A stretch of 6,885 bases of DNA from Myxococcales bacterium (lineage in GTDB: Bacteria > Myxococcota > Bradymonadia > REDH01), in NCBI GenBank assembly GCA_018970625.1, contig JAGWVZ010000197.1, positions 1 to 6,885 of the forward strand, given 5' to 3'. The translations under genes and the position numbers were made by a program. Below, piece after piece: positions 1 to 6,885 of the stretch. Each line of letters opens with the position of its first letter. The stretch's first letter is position 1. A model generated the notes under the pieces. It ran no database searches. It saw only the letters and a program-made list of their open reading frames with translations, and was not told the origin of the DNA.

Positions 1-668
1 TCCAGCGCATCGCGGCTGCCAATATCGCCCTTTATGCCGGCTGCTTTTTTGGCCGACGCAGCAACATTTCCACTGCCACACAGCCAGGAAATCAATGAGC
101 CCGCCTCTAACACCTCGCCGCGCTGCTTGAGGTCGAAGATGGTCTGAATAACCCGAATAAAATCCTGTGAAGCGCGACCGCCGGTCATCGACGCCAGGTC
201 GGTTTCGATACGCTGTCGAACCTGATCGTCAAAATCGGGCGCGTTTTCGTCGGCGCCGCCAGCGATCAATCCGGCTTCCACATGACCAATCCAGCGGTCC
301 AGAATGTCGCCCAGTGCTCCCCGGGGGCACGAGGAGGTGCCCAATTCGGTGGTGACTTTGCGATACACATCATCGAAACGGTGGAATTGCAGGTCGTTGT
401 CAGAAACAACAACGAAACTCGTCGCAAATCCGCGTGCCTGCGCGTCCAGCAGGGCGAGTCGGGCCATGAAAGTCTTGCCGCAACCGTAGCCACCGCGCAG
501 AAATTTTATGGTGCCTTCGCGGTTCTCGGCCAGGTCGAGTTGTCGCTGCAATTCGCCGCGTTGCTTTTCTACACCGACCGCAAAAGCATCCATGCCGCGC
601 TCGGGTACGAGACCTTTGCGGAGTTGTTCAAAGATGTGTTCCACGTCGCGCTGGGTCAGGGTGCTCAT
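1..668 (-). CDS. brxD: BrxD, BREX P-loop ATPase (DUF2791 type), 5' part only
   Basis: The gene runs off the left edge, leaving 222 N-terminal residues (MSTLTQRDVEHIFEQLRKGL...) of a family usually about 430 long. A Walker A motif, GGYGCGKTFMA, is visible at residues 59-69 after the strand IKFLR. A strand (TSFVVVSDND, about 83-92) and the segment FHRFDDVYRKV follow, and ISWLCGSGNV lies near residues 193-202. This arrangement is typical of the BREX ATP-binding protein BrxD (DUF2791). BrxD is a cytoplasmic ATPase found with PglZ in BREX types 2 and 6; its exact role in phage exclusion is not settled. The ATG at 668 is supported by an AGAAGGA ribosome site 5 bases upstream and by the 4-base ATGA overlap with the pglZ stop, so the two are probably co-translated. 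The Walker B region and C-terminal half are outside the window. The BrxD call rests on motif pattern and on position directly after pglZ; another BREX-associated AAA-type ATPase is the less likely alternative. Confidence 0.85.
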   Translation of the reverse strand, partial: MSTLTQRDVEHIFEQLRKGLVPERGMDAFAVGVEKQRGELQRQLDLAENREGTIKFLRGGYGCGKTFMARLALLDAQARGFATSFVVVSDNDLQFHRFDDVYRKVTTELGTSSCPRGALGDILDRWIGHVEAGLIAGGADENAPDFDDQVRQRIETDLASMTGGRASQDFIRVIQTIFDLKQRGEVLEAGSLISWLCGSGNVAASAKKAAGIKGDIGSRDAL

Positions 669-3592
669 TTGGTTCCTTCTCGTACGTAACGCTTTTCGCC
701 ACCGGTGGATTCGATGCGAATACCGAACGGCGCCTTGCTGGCGTGGTCGTCGAATTTAATTGCGAATTGACGCATGGCGCGTGGACCACCCAGCATCCCG
801 GTTGCCTCGCGTTCTGTAATCACGCCGTGCACAGCAATGTGCTCAAACACCTGTCGAACGCCGGGGTCGTCATATTCATTTAGCCAGTCGCGTGACGCGG
901 GGGCGCTTGTCTTGCCCGCCGTTGAAGCGACCGGTTTGCCCTGCGCGTCCTGCTTCGCGGCGACGTCAAAGCGAGTGTCGAGTGTCAAGGGTACCACATC
1001 GACCACTGCATCCGGGTGGTGCAATTGCACCAGCACACGCGCGTCCGTCGTACCCGACAGGCGGAAGAAAAGCTCGAACTCCGTACCCACCTTTGCGGTC
1101 ACGGCGCCCTGCGAAAGTGTTGCTCCGCCGAGCACCTGACACAGCTCTACCTGAACCCCTTCCGCGTCGGCGACACGCAACGCGAGCACGACGTCGACAG
1201 CATTATCAAAGCCGAGCGAGCTTTGTGCGTCCACCTCGACGGTGGCACGCAGGCAGTGCATGCCACTGACGGTCTCTCGGGCGCCGGCTTGAATGCGAAA
1301 CTGCTTTCGAGTGCCGCCAGCGGGCCGATGGTGCACGACGGTAATGACCGGAATCACGCGTTCCTGAAGACTATTTCCGCCGTGTACAAAGCCCATGGTG
1401 CGCCGCCCTGTGTCAAAGACGGCAGTGGACTCCGGGAAAATCAGGTAGGCGTCGGTGCCTTCGTATCCCAGCGCAGACAGTGAAACGCGAACTTCGCCCG
1501 TGGACGAGGCGTCGGTTCTTGTGAGTACATAGCGGCGCCCGGGGTCTACACGGCGACCATGCGCTTGCGCCGAAAGCACCGTGTCGTCGAGCAACAGAAA
1601 CCCGTGGTCACTGGTGAACACAAACCGACGCACACCCGCGTCGCGAAGCAGGCGCCATGCAGAAGCCAGCTGCCGCAATACCTGGTCAAACACGGCGAGT
1701 CCGGCGCCGCTTTCGCCTGCTTCATCGATTTCGCGGCTATGCACCACCACCAGGCGCGCCTGCGCGATCGATCGCTTCAGGGCGGCAGCGCCACGATTAT
1801 TGACCTCTTCCAGCGTAAGCCAGGGGCAGGTATTGCCACGCGTACGGTCGTTCATGGCGTTCTTGCGCGACTCGGGATTAAATACCCGAAACTCGTTCTG
1901 CCTGTCTCCGAAACGAAACCCCTGTATGTCGCTCTGGTCGGCCGCCATTACCGGAAAAACCTTCCCGTTTTTTTCGACCGGAGCCAAAAGGTTCATGCCC
2001 ACTTCGGTGACCGTTGGCAGCTCGGCCAGACGGGCACGAAGGTGTGCGGTGGTCCCACTCTCTTCGGCAAATGTACGGAATAATTCTTCACCCATTTCGA
2101 AGCGCAACGCATCGACCACAAAATAGGCGGTCATATCATTTTCTTGCGTGAACGGCCGCACAACCTGCTCGAAGATCGTGCGCTGCTGCATGGCCGAATC
2201 AGGCAGGAATCCCTGCGTGCGACAAATCGCATTAAATTCGCGCGCCCACGAATCGGCCCAGTGGCGCCATGCAAGACGCAACGCATCCAGCTGCGTGCGA
2301 AGACTCTCGAATTCTGGCACCCGGGGATACAACAGGTTTCTGCGTTGTTGATCCAGGTGTCGGTGCGCCTGATCGACCGCGGCGCCGCGCTCCACATAGG
2401 CATTCACAACCGCATGCAGACCGCCGTTCTCGTTGGGGTTGATGCCGGGTCGTTCGCCGGCGCGCGCCAGCGCTACACCCAGGTTTGCGGCTTCGGCGAC
2501 CAGCAGCCACGCACTATTTCGATCCGGGTCTTCCTGCAGCCAGAACGAACGCGCGGCGGTAGCCGAGCCGAGTCGTAGGGCGGCCCAATCGGCAGCGCGT
2601 GGATAGTCCTTGTTTGCCAGCGCCGAGATGGCCCCTTTCAGTACTTTGTCGTCCTCGAACCGAAAGGTATCGACTTTGCCAAGGTCTCGGGCGTCGGCGG
2701 CCTCGACCTCATCGGCCAGAATGATCTCGGTTTCGTCGGCCGTGCGCTTATAGAAAGCGGCGTGCTGCCTGCGAAGATGGATCGCCAGTTTATTACAGTT
2801 GCCGACGAGCTCTCCGGGAAGCGCCCGCACCCCGCTCAGGTAGCTGCTCACCGGCTTTCGCGAAAGGTCATGCACATATTCCACGCACAACGCCCAGCTC
2901 GCTACGGCAAAGGCGACGTCACTCCCGAGTAGCCGGTTCATGCTGCCGGTGAGCATGGCATTGCGCCATGCGTCGGGCAATCCCAGCGACGCGTTCAGCT
3001 GCACCCACAGGGTGGCGGCATATGCGGGGTCGGCGAGCCCGGCTGCAATCGGGCCTCCCTCAAGCAGATCGTCGAGCAACGCGCTGGGCTTCATGGCACG
3101 CAGCTGACCGCTCAGGCCCTGCGCGCTGGCGCTGTCGAGGGCGTTCAGCCAGACATCGGCTGCGGCCAGTGTCAGCTGCGGTTGCCGCTTGAATGCGGCG
3201 ATCTCGTCGGGGCCAACGCGCCCGGCGGCCGTTTCGGTGACCAGTGTATCCAGCGCCTTCCAAAACCGTATGCCAGCTTCATGCAGCTCCAGCAAAGGGG
3301 TCAGGCCAACGGTGTCCTCATTGAAACCGGGCATATGGACCACCAGCGGCACAGGCTCGGTGCCTGCGGCCACCCCGTCGAGCGCAAGCAATAAGGCCAG
3401 ATGACTACCCCGCCATGCGAACACGGAATAATTCAGGGCGCCATTGCGCCGAGCTTCCATCAGCTCATCGACCAAGGCGGTATAATGGGCGTCCTTGTCG
3501 AGCCACACGACCACGCCATGCTTATGTATGGCCGCGCGCAGCTCGGCTTCGAGGGCGGCAGAGACAGGGCGGTGGGGAAATAGGGTGGTCAT
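665..3592 (-). CDS. pglZ: PglZ, BREX alkaline-phosphatase-superfamily protein (type 6-like)
   Basis: This is a complete 975-residue protein, in the usual size range for BREX PglZ. The N-terminal half (about 1-480) is mostly helical and lacks obvious catalytic motifs. The phosphatase core shows YFVVDALRFEMGEELF at about 490-505 (metal-binding Asp in VVDALR), LPTVTEVGM at 525-533 (nucleophile-type Thr region), FTSDHGFLLLDD at 659-670 (DHG metal ligands) and FVHGGNSLQERVIPVI at 735-750 (His ligand region). After this comes a beta-rich stretch and a C-terminal segment (about 900-975) resembling a small winged-helix module. PglZ is an essential cytoplasmic BREX component; related PglZ domains show metal-dependent nuclease or phosphodiesterase activity, but the in vivo substrate is not established. 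The ATG at 3592 is used because a TAG lies in frame six bases upstream. No strong Shine-Dalgarno is visible, so coupling to a short upstream frame is possible. The stop overlaps the brxD start by 4 bases. Confidence 0.93.
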   Translation of the reverse strand: MTTLFPHRPVSAALEAELRAAIHKHGVVVWLDKDAHYTALVDELMEARRNGALNYSVFAWRGSHLALLLALDGVAAGTEPVPLVVHMPGFNEDTVGLTPLLELHEAGIRFWKALDTLVTETAAGRVGPDEIAAFKRQPQLTLAAADVWLNALDSASAQGLSGQLRAMKPSALLDDLLEGGPIAAGLADPAYAATLWVQLNASLGLPDAWRNAMLTGSMNRLLGSDVAFAVASWALCVEYVHDLSRKPVSSYLSGVRALPGELVGNCNKLAIHLRRQHAAFYKRTADETEIILADEVEAADARDLGKVDTFRFEDDKVLKGAISALANKDYPRAADWAALRLGSATAARSFWLQEDPDRNSAWLLVAEAANLGVALARAGERPGINPNENGGLHAVVNAYVERGAAVDQAHRHLDQQRRNLLYPRVPEFESLRTQLDALRLAWRHWADSWAREFNAICRTQGFLPDSAMQQRTIFEQVVRPFTQENDMTAYFVVDALRFEMGEELFRTFAEESGTTAHLRARLAELPTVTEVGMNLLAPVEKNGKVFPVMAADQSDIQGFRFGDRQNEFRVFNPESRKNAMNDRTRGNTCPWLTLEEVNNRGAAALKRSIAQARLVVVHSREIDEAGESGAGLAVFDQVLRQLASAWRLLRDAGVRRFVFTSDHGFLLLDDTVLSAQAHGRRVDPGRRYVLTRTDASSTGEVRVSLSALGYEGTDAYLIFPESTAVFDTGRRTMGFVHGGNSLQERVIPVITVVHHRPAGGTRKQFRIQAGARETVSGMHCLRATVEVDAQSSLGFDNAVDVVLALRVADAEGVQVELCQVLGGATLSQGAVTAKVGTEFELFFRLSGTTDARVLVQLHHPDAVVDVVPLTLDTRFDVAAKQDAQGKPVASTAGKTSAPASRDWLNEYDDPGVRQVFEHIAVHGVITEREATGMLGGPRAMRQFAIKFDDHASKAPFGIRIESTGGEKRYVREGTK
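674..680 (-). promoter_or_regulatory. Ribosome binding site of brxD
   Basis: The minus strand reads AGAAGGA five bases before the brxD ATG at 668. The site lies inside the last codons of pglZ, which fits re-initiation or coupled translation from pglZ into brxD. Confidence 0.7.
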
Positions 3593-3669
3593 AAACTACG
3601 CGCAAAGCGATACAGCCAGGTGCCCAGTCGTTGATGCCCGGTAATCGTGCGATGAAAATCACTCAACAT
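3589..3669 (-). other. 26-codon reading frame bridging two genes, possible translational coupler
   Basis: An ATG inside the end of the DUF6575-like gene opens a 26-residue basic frame (MLSDFHRTITGHQ...WLYRFARSL) whose TGA overlaps the pglZ ATG in the string TTATGACC. It spans the whole 66-base gap between the genes. No ribosome site precedes it. It may carry ribosomes across the gap to pglZ, which itself lacks a clear Shine-Dalgarno. It could equally be chance, or the tail of a longer ancestral C-terminus of the upstream protein moved out of frame. Confidence 0.25.
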
Positions 3670-4879
3670 CGTGGCCTGGCTGCACTGGCTCGGTGGTAGT
3701 GAATTCAATTTCCGTAGCAATCCAGCTTCGTTTGTCCTGACTGCGCGCAGCAACGCTGACAAACAACTCCTGATAGTGCGCTTCACGAGCCACTTCTAGC
3801 AATTGGTTATTCTCCAGCTCCAGAAACATGTCAGGTTGTCCGTCTTCCTGATTGCGCAACACGATGGTGAGCTTGTCGAGATCGAGATCGCGAATTCGAC
3901 CTTTGAACACCTTGAGCTGCACCTCATGTCTTTTTTTCAAACGGGTGAGTTCGGATCGAACACGCTTTCCAGCCGCACGATTCAAGGTCACGGGACGAAG
4001 CGAGCCGCTCACTATTGGGCCTGACAGGTGAACTTCTGATAAGACTCCGTCCTGCCCGGGCGCCAGACGCTTCAGGGTTTCCAGAACGGCCATCGACTTT
4101 GCATCATCATCACCGAGCGGCCTGTCCTCAGCGGTCTGCGTTGCCCAGTCGAGTCCCTCCCGAAATGCATGGGTCGCCTTTGCCTTGATCTCTTTCTGGA
4201 TTGCTCCGATTTCAGGTTGCAGCGCCAGCTCAACCTGATTGGCAGGTTGTACCGGCTGGCTACTGAACGCGACTTCCAGACTGCCAAACGCCACATATTG
4301 CGTGGGTTTCGAATAAAGCGCCTGAAGCCACTCCGGTGGACGACCGGCGACATCTGCCCGAACGTCGCGCGCCGCCCACTCGATGATAGGTTTCAAGCCA
4401 GTCGCACCCCACTCTGCAGCATGCAGGAGCGCCGACGCTGGCACGCGGCCTTCCACAATGCTGTCTCCTACCAGGCGTACCGTCAGTGCAGGCTGAAGGT
4501 GCGCCCACAGCATGATGCCCGGTGCTGGCAGCACATCGTCAGGAATATCATCGAGTTCAATGAAAAAGGCGCGCTGTGGTGCGTACGACTGGTCAGTGTC
4601 TACCAGCCATAACGAACCACGGAGCAACGCCTCGCGCACTGTAAGCGCGCCCTGTTTCAAAGCGTGGACCGTGCGTTCGGAGGTAGTCGCCACAATGTAG
4701 CGAAGGGCGCGCTCGTCTTCGAGCTCCTCTGCCAGGTAGGCAATCACCTTTGCGCCTGAGGGCAGACGCGACACGAAAATGCAGGGACCATCAAATTCGT
4801 ACAGCACATCTTCGGGGCACAATAGGCCAATCGCGTCCAGTGTGGTCTCGCGCAGTATACTCAGTTCAGGCCATGGCAT
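3659..4879 (-). CDS. Protein with DUF6575-like N-terminus, BREX-embedded accessory gene
   Basis: The 406-residue product begins MPWPELSILRE. The first ~125 residues resemble DUF6575: VLYEFDGPCIFVSR, then an acidic AYLAEELEDE strand-loop, YIVATTSERTVHALKQG, a REALLRGSLWLVD segment and IELDDIPDDVLP. A charged helical middle follows (about 205-300: EIGAIQKEIKAKATHAFREG, LETLKRL). The C-terminus (about 310-395) is beta-rich and looks like a small barrel: VQLKVFKGRIRDLDLDKL, then MFLELENN, then LFVSVAARS. No signal peptide, membrane helix or catalytic motif is visible, so it is probably cytoplasmic. Its function is unknown. The frame is open further upstream, but the ATG at 4879 has an AGGAGG 10 bases before it and overlaps the previous gene's TGA by one base (TGATG), which marks the real start. 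It sits between pglX and pglZ, which are normally adjacent in type 6 BREX, and is probably an accessory gene paired with its upstream neighbour. The DUF6575 assignment is from pattern memory. Confidence 0.78.
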   Translation of the reverse strand: MPWPELSILRETTLDAIGLLCPEDVLYEFDGPCIFVSRLPSGAKVIAYLAEELEDERALRYIVATTSERTVHALKQGALTVREALLRGSLWLVDTDQSYAPQRAFFIELDDIPDDVLPAPGIMLWAHLQPALTVRLVGDSIVEGRVPASALLHAAEWGATGLKPIIEWAARDVRADVAGRPPEWLQALYSKPTQYVAFGSLEVAFSSQPVQPANQVELALQPEIGAIQKEIKAKATHAFREGLDWATQTAEDRPLGDDDAKSMAVLETLKRLAPGQDGVLSEVHLSGPIVSGSLRPVTLNRAAGKRVRSELTRLKKRHEVQLKVFKGRIRDLDLDKLTIVLRNQEDGQPDMFLELENNQLLEVAREAHYQELFVSVAARSQDKRSWIATEIEFTTTEPVQPGHDVE

Positions 4880-5307
4880 CAGAGTTGAACCTCCTCGCCT
4901 TCTGTAAACAGCGAACAGCGGTCTGCCAGGGTGAGGCGTTCTGACGGCCACCAGCTGGTGTGCGTTGGCTGACTACCACGCGTCGTGAGAGTACGTCCAT
5001 GTTGAGCCATAAGGGTCGCGTGAACAACGTACCTGCGCTGCCACCCCCGGAACAGCAGCACTTGATGCTGTGCATCCTCATACGAACGGAACACAGACAG
5101 CGCTCGCCTCAAACATGGCTCGGCGTGATGCAGACGGTCTTGCTCTTCGGCCGTCTCCATGTCTTGCGGCGCCGGTGGGCAGGCCTTTGCACAACGATAC
5201 ACCTCGCCTGCCGCTGACTCCGCCAGCATCGGAGGACAGTTCGGTATCGCTGCTTGCACGACCACCATGCTTTTAACTCTTTCGAAAAGGGCCACGACTC
5301 GTTTCAT
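4879..5307 (-). CDS. Small hypothetical protein, partner of the DUF6575-like gene
   Basis: The longest ATG-started version has 142 residues (MKRVVALFERVKSM...). The part that looks like a conserved domain is residues ~63-135: CLRRALSVFRSYEDAQHQ (65-82), a HATLMAQHGRTLTT strand (96-109), QPTHTSWWPSE (113-123) and RCSLF (130-134). The order EDA-HQ, then QHG, then THT-WW resembles small uncharacterised bacterial proteins, but I cannot name a family. The N-terminal ~60 residues are Cys/Pro-rich and less protein-like, so a later start (Met14 at 5268, Met27 at 5229 or Met50 at 5160) is quite possible; no start has a convincing ribosome site. There is no signal peptide or membrane segment. Its TGA overlaps the ATG of the DUF6575-like gene, so the two are probably translated together and may act together. 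Function is unknown; His and Trp residues in the THTSWW motif are candidates for binding or catalysis (inference). Confidence 0.7.
   Translation of the reverse strand: MKRVVALFERVKSMVVVQAAIPNCPPMLAESAAGEVYRCAKACPPAPQDMETAEEQDRLHHAEPCLRRALSVFRSYEDAQHQVLLFRGWQRRYVVHATLMAQHGRTLTTRGSQPTHTSWWPSERLTLADRCSLFTEGEEVQL
4890..4895 (-). promoter_or_regulatory. Ribosome binding site of the DUF6575-like gene
   Basis: The minus strand carries a perfect AGGAGG ten bases before the ATG at 4879, inside the final codons of the preceding small gene. It decides the start against a longer in-frame start at 4951, which would overlap that gene by more than 70 bases. Confidence 0.75.
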
Positions 5308-5521
5308 TCACAGAACAAATGTCAGCGTCACCAGCCAGTGTCAATCTCTCAAGGGTCTTCCTGGCCGCTGTTCGGGTTGGGCCAGACCAGTACAACTTCG
5401 CAAGTCGGCGGCCTGAGCCTTTCCGACCCAATTGGGGCACAGGCTGTGCCCCAATTGTCCGATCAGGTGACTCAGCAATCCGAGCCTTCACCTCTGTCAG
5501 CAACGCGAGATAGTCAGGCAA
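5273..5521 (-). other. Gap after pglX: open frame of doubtful coding value, with palindrome
   Basis: The 220 bases between the pglX stop and the next gene (5308-5527) hold an 82-codon frame with a TTG start (PDYLALLTEVKARIAES...), ending 35 bases inside the next gene. Residues ~17-33 are encoded by a perfect palindrome, which argues against an intact protein. The first ~16 residues and a later AKLYW resemble the start of DUF1016/YhcG-type PDDEXK nucleases (a helix ending ARI, then a LYW motif), which are common in defence loci. If so, this is a decayed remnant split by the hairpin. The GGGAG before the TTG is too close to be a normal ribosome site. Most likely it is non-coding spacer or a degraded gene start. 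Confidence 0.25.
5429..5457. repeat. Perfect palindrome between pglX and the cassette
   Basis: Fourteen-base arms (CAATTGGGGCACAG and its exact complement) flank a single central G. As RNA this would form a very stable hairpin about 70 bases after the pglX stop. No run of T follows on the minus strand (the sequence continues GGTCGGAAAGG), so it is not a classic rho-independent terminator. It could stall or attenuate transcription, protect the upstream mRNA 3' end, or be a REP/RAYT-type dispersed element; the TTGGGG...CCCCAA ends recall such elements. Confidence 0.8.
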
Positions 5522-5527
5522 CTCCCT

Positions 5528-6885
<1,358 letters not shown>

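Follow-up and report, generated by a model that had tools for sequence, protein, structure and literature searches.

PD-T4-10 is a two-gene system directed against T-even phages in which, according to the passages devoted to it in Vassallo et al. 2022 (PMC9519451), protein B, which carries a DUF6575 domain, is toxic and protein A neutralises it; the same passages describe overlapping open reading frames, a requirement for B against T4, an abortive infection phenotype, and no predicted function for either protein. Separate defence modules are also known from within bacteriophage exclusion (BREX) operons, where PARIS (ariAB) and BrxU, as covered in parts of PMC11341690 and PMC12205998, reside in type I BREX and the interval between pglX and pglZ is a site for cargo. 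According to PMC11341690, pglZ and pglX are co-located in about 9,000 genomes; about 7,000 of these have genes in between, and in about 5,000 of the latter no recognised defence system is present there. A 2026 BREX survey (PMC12839542) describes auxiliary effectors. Here we describe two genes, A and B, located between pglX and pglZ of a type 6 BREX (BREX-6) operon on a 6,885-nt stretch of a Myxococcales bacterium genome (GCA_018970625.1, contig JAGWVZ010000197.1, positions 1 to 6,885), referred to below as the window. The pair is probably a divergent PD-T4-10-like toxin-antitoxin module that sits between pglX and pglZ as cargo; it shares with PARIS and BrxU the position of a separate defence module inside a BREX operon, and differs from them in its proteins and in the type of its host operon.

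The relationship to PD-T4-10 was assessed with the PADLOC models PDLC04023 and PDLC04024 and with their hits, which stand in for the experimentally tested pair. At E-values up to 1, PADLOC matched B to PD-T4-10_B alone (E 2.7e-4, residues 50-144 of its 430-aa frame) and A to PD-T4-10_A alone (E 0.023), and the gene order agrees as well. A profile of A aligned over 99 columns with the four A proteins of the enterobacterial pairs L013 and L015-L017, three of which are PADLOC PD-T4-10_A hits, at a probability of 96.1 and an E-value of 3.4e-9 (the E-values of these profile-profile alignments, including the one for B below, refer to single comparisons). Searching plasmids with A by tblastn gave two weak matches, in Rhodococcus (E 0.1) and Rahnella (E 0.6), each directly upstream of a DUF6575-type gene, and the same A-B arrangement recurs in Escherichia coli prophages (L015, L016 and L018) and on a Pantoea plasmid (L017). 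In a PADLOC scan of L015, L016 and L017, the B proteins matched PD-T4-10_B and the A proteins matched PD-T4-10_A, except that of Pantoea, which had no match. Judged by these comparisons, A is homologous to PD-T4-10_A-like proteins, and B has the N-terminal domain of the PD-T4-10-like proteins with another C-terminal half. The initial annotation of the window, made from the letters alone, had described B as DUF6575-like and the pair as a possible accessory defence module in the position between pglX and pglZ, and both descriptions are supported; its suggestion that the pair might be wholly undescribed gives way to a distant relationship with PD-T4-10.

That A and B are genes follows from different kinds of evidence. 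The same-strand placement between pglX and pglZ and the TGATG coupling noted in the initial annotation were confirmed in coordinates and overlap, and a GGAGGT motif occurs 9 nt upstream of the B ATG. An open frame of at least 400 codons, in any of the six frames, appeared in 3 of 2000 sequences simulated from the region with a first-order Markov model, and a frame the size of A in 1506 of 2000; because a frame of that size is common by chance, the status of A as a gene rests on its homologues, which refute the proposal that it is spurious. Protein searches returned 40 clusters for B and 23 for A, each including the window's own, with the 39 further B clusters at 41-54% identity and the 22 further A clusters at 50-62%. 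The alignments of these further clusters contain many invariant columns, among them H-T-S-W-W in A. An alignment-based search with 11 A proteins reached 47 clusters (including the window's own), whose sources include metagenomic sequences, Enterobacterales and Rhodococcus. Across 19 aligned A sequences (the window's, 15 from databases and those of three loci) the invariant residues are two prolines, two glycines and one serine, with an Arg, a His and a Trp among the nearly invariant positions; Arg25, Glu42, Ser58 and His103 of A count as conserved residues. The A frame can be read from ATG 5307 (4879-5307), and its start is most likely ATG 5268, since homologues begin near there; a longer frame for B, from a GTG start, runs to 4951 and extends back into A.

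The two genes travel together. Among the loci examined, A is directly upstream of B in 12 of the 13 B genes with a DUF6575-type N-terminus (the window, L001, two in L002, L013-L018, L082, L083 and L087), some of these pairs being remnants, which supports the co-occurrence that the initial annotation proposed to test. L018 holds the same B as L016 and is not independent, while L003-L005, L008, L010, L022, L023, L086 and L088 repeat other loci. The fairest subset comprises the five genomes found by the B profile alone (L001, L002, L082, L083 and L087), because L013 and L014 were reached through A and L015-L018 through the DNA or protein of a relative; A is present in four of these five. In the 12 pairs the two frames overlap by 1 to ~10 nt where A ends and B begins, with starts judged by eye from the junctions. 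Further, 6 of 53 A clusters match one of the 39 B clusters in the exact size of their longest contig, where 0.15 would be expected from jittered lengths, indirect evidence that A and B clusters lie on the same contigs. The pairing count excludes three loci (L072:5482-6867, L084:8986-10011 and L085:964-1485) in which B is represented by its middle and C-terminal region, with no DUF6575 N-terminus; in L072 and L084 this part adjoins, by eye, a nucleotidyltransferase-like gene, and in L072 it lies between pglX and a pglZ that scores below the BREX-6 cut-off.

The pairs occur in a range of settings. Those of E. coli and Rahnella have antiterminator, lysis or terminase genes nearby, in regions of prophage type (the Rahnella region being on a plasmid), the Pantoea pair is near an integrase, and the pairs of L082, L083 and L087 are in chromosomal stretches where no BREX gene was recognised by eye. 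In L002 (3526-5495), two tandem broken A-B pairs lie near what appear by eye to be fragments of type I restriction-modification-like genes. The genome of L002, G002, belongs to the Lujinxingiaceae, which NCBI places in Bradymonadales under Deltaproteobacteria and which we take to fall within Myxococcota in GTDB. B-profile matches were found in at least 6 of 377 genomes of this phylum, a lower bound as at most four candidates were scored per genome, and in 3 of 57 genomes of one of its classes; some of these matches involve no more of B than its middle and C-terminus, and the pair of genome G092 surfaced only in the class search. Searches with B gave no match in plasmids, phages or viral contigs, the Rahnella B had no match in phages, and a scan of genome contigs recovered two broken copies only. 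The initial annotation had proposed looking for the pair both inside BREX loci and alone: it does occur away from BREX, and inside BREX-6 it was seen in the window only.

Several observations weigh against the PD-T4-10-like reading. The PADLOC score of A is poor, and two of its relatives (P0064 and P0074) have no PADLOC match at 0.1. DUF6575 itself (PF20215) is weak in B (E 0.021; 14.6 bits, cut-off 26.6), and relatives straddle that cut-off (P0018 at 27.0 bits and P0003 at 26.4 bits). The hhalign comparison of B with the enterobacterial B proteins covers residues 15-87 only, with a probability of 22.8 and an E-value of 9e-4; the C-terminal half does not align with these proteins, and the similarity to the DUF6575 and PD-T4-10_B models is confined to the N-terminal third. 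To these can be added the single BREX-6 locus in which the pair has been seen, a broken B in L001 without a recognisable A, and the reduction of both pairs in L002 to remnants. The homology of B to PD-T4-10_B-like proteins does not extend over its whole length, and therefore the pair is termed 'PD-T4-10-like' and is not filed as a member; plain membership was rejected on the failure of the C-terminal half. In common with PD-T4-10, the window has two genes, A then B, in overlapping frames, with homology over the 99 columns of A and a DUF6575-like N-terminus in B. It differs in that A is 18-24% identical to the aligned enterobacterial and Rhodococcus A proteins, in that the C-terminus of B is OB-like where the four enterobacterial B proteins have weak DUF7226 matches, and in that the pair is inside BREX-6 and not in a prophage.

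Structure prediction of the single chains offers tentative leads for both proteins. The predicted fold of A resembles ADP-ribosyltransferases, and the predicted C-terminus of B resembles an OB fold, with the list of similar folds for B spanning mainly residues 319-399. Sequence searches of solved structures gave nothing useful (A3, no matches; A9, two matches at E 0.7). In the literature searched, no work was found joining the antitoxin and fold terms, and DUF6575 and PD-T4-10 occurred only together, in one and the same source. Alternatively, A could be an active ADP-ribosyltransferase effector and B its sensor or regulator, which would make the pair an unrelated two-gene defence and not a toxin-antitoxin module; we consider this unlikely.

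All genes of the window are on the minus strand in the order pglX, A, B, pglZ and brxD, and form part of one BREX-6 operon. The assignment is carried by PglZ, whose score is well over the curated cut-off (see table), and the two genes truncated by the window edges scored below theirs, with 526 bits against 900 for the PglX C-terminus (NF033455) and 253 against 350 for the partial BrxD (NF033438).

Features of the window (coordinates on the forward strand, position 1 being the first letter)
Feature	Coordinates	Strand	Description
brxD, N-terminal part	3..668	-	222 aa, truncated by window edge
pglZ	665..3592 (ATG 3592)	-	975 aa; BREX-6 type; NCBIfam NF033443, 1191 bits (cut-off 400)
gene B	3659..4879	-	406 aa, ATG 4879; DUF6575-like N-terminus, helical middle, predicted OB-like C-terminal domain ~318-400; putative toxin/effector
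TGATG stop-start overlap A/B	4877..4881	-	TGA 4881-4879 and ATG 4879-4877
gene A	4879..5268	-	129 aa (142 aa if ATG 5307); PD-T4-10_A-like, putative antitoxin; predicted ADP-ribosyltransferase-like fold
spacer pglX-A	5269..5527	-	29-bp perfect palindrome and 82-aa frame, probably no gene
pglX, C-terminal part	5528..6883	-	451 aa, truncated by window edge; probably BREX-6 type

B ends 66 bp before pglZ, and 259 bp separate pglX from the likely start of A. No promoter-like and no terminator-like site was found (shuffled sequences gave 0.4 and 1.6, respectively), and the layout is consistent with a single transcript. Third-position guanine-cytosine content (0.83 in pglX, 0.62 in A, 0.60 in B, 0.69 in pglZ and 0.64 in brxD) suggests that the operon is a mosaic, in which A and B are near the values of their downstream neighbours. 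The spacer before A holds a perfect palindrome at 5429-5457 (arms of 14 nt around a centre of 1 nt), within an 82-aa frame at 5273-5521 that has no codon bias and no relative (best E 2); the palindrome could be the trace of an earlier insertion. The first ~15 residues of this frame (5470-5521) may resemble the start of DUF1016 N-terminal domains, which hmmscan did not report. A DUF1016_N fragment occupies the same pglX-pglZ slot in another BREX-6 locus, L067.

The initial annotation had held that in type 6 BREX pglZ normally comes straight after pglX and that the pair could be a component of an uncharacterised subtype; neither agrees with the loci sampled here. At least 29 of the 377 genomes in the phylum of G002 have a PglZ above the curated BREX-6 cut-off (at most two candidates were scored per genome), and none of the five genomes in the phylum of G001 does. 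Of the 28 loci examined among these 29, pglX was visible upstream in 19 (drawn from L025 and L054-L081), and the gap to pglZ is 350 bp or less in 5 and more than 500 bp in 14, measured between the ends of tblastn matches, so that it may include an unmatched pglX tail. The direct arrangement does occur on an Aulosira plasmid (L020), where pglX overlaps pglZ; plasmid BREX-6 loci of Pseudanabaena and Azospirillum have two small genes and a metallo-beta-lactamase-like gene in this interval, respectively. In the long gaps of L068 and L081 only opposite-strand frames were picked, and the opposite strand also carries the large genes of L062. PADLOC scans covered 10 of the 14 long intervals, with 16 chosen proteins, and found defence matches in six of the 10: HEC-01 (in three intervals), SIR2-HerA, a TIR protein together with a GmrSD/HNH protein, and an RmrA-like protein, with no match among the chosen proteins of L025, L066, L075 and L079. 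Pfam domains in the intervals include DUF6119, DUF5615, RES and the DUF1016 N-terminal fragment. The HEC-01, SIR2-HerA and TIR/GmrSD cargo occupies the same interval as the window pair and belongs to protein families other than those of A and B. Because the pglX-pglZ interval is often occupied, and by varied genes, it can be regarded as a cargo slot in BREX-6.

The proximity of the pair to pglZ, on the same strand, between two core genes and with no promoter- or terminator-like site found, would also be expected of a BREX-6 subtype component or of a regulator acting within the BREX complex, with the predicted OB-like domain of B helping PglX or PglZ on DNA, for example. However, a homologue of A or B was found in none of the 19 loci with visible pglX and pglZ, nor was the pair found in the three plasmid loci, and pairs exist in prophages, on plasmids and in places with no BREX in view. 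Such a role is therefore quite unlikely, and a core function in BREX-6 was rejected as the other sampled loci do without the pair; since no sampled locus carries it and pairs occur elsewhere, the pair is better described as swappable cargo. The broken homologues in L001 and L002 and the debris-like spacer before A might suggest that the pair lacks a function today and is cargo in decay or acquired by chance. This is very improbable given that both frames in the window are intact and keep the invariant residues of the family and the overlap.

As a divergent PD-T4-10-like toxin-antitoxin module, the pair would probably provide the operon with a second, suicide-type defence in the form of removable cargo. 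We infer its function, and its link to that of BREX, from sequence comparisons. B would be a growth-arresting effector, and A, translated just ahead of it and in step, would bind and silence it. Phage infection may upset this balance, either because A is lost or because a phage or anti-BREX product is sensed, and the freed B would then arrest the infected cell ahead of phage release. B may act via its DUF6575 domain while the OB-like C-terminus docks it on a target, perhaps nucleic acid, a task that a different C-terminus would perform in the enterobacterial forms. Within BREX, the pair would form a second layer that fires once methylation-based exclusion fails. A second-layer role has been suggested in print, in passages on PARIS embedded in BREX; the sections of PMC11341690 on the Salmonella BREX island point the other way, as the embedded PARIS was inactive towards the tested phages, and deleting it increased defence against phage TB34 about tenfold. 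There is a small chance of an enzymatic toxin-antitoxin tied more closely to BREX, in which an A with the predicted ADP-ribosyltransferase fold would keep B, the DUF6575/OB protein, inactive, either by modifying it or by staying bound to it as a pseudo-enzyme, until phage attack on BREX frees it. If this holds, an antitoxin with a transferase fold would stand guard over a restriction system.

One cargo of the pglX-pglZ interval that had no identity thus gains a likely one. The 47 A clusters indicate that the PD-T4-10-like family reaches well past the prophages of enterobacteria, and the predicted folds of A and B provide the first structural leads, tentative as they are, for a toxin-antitoxin pair of the PD-T4-10 type.
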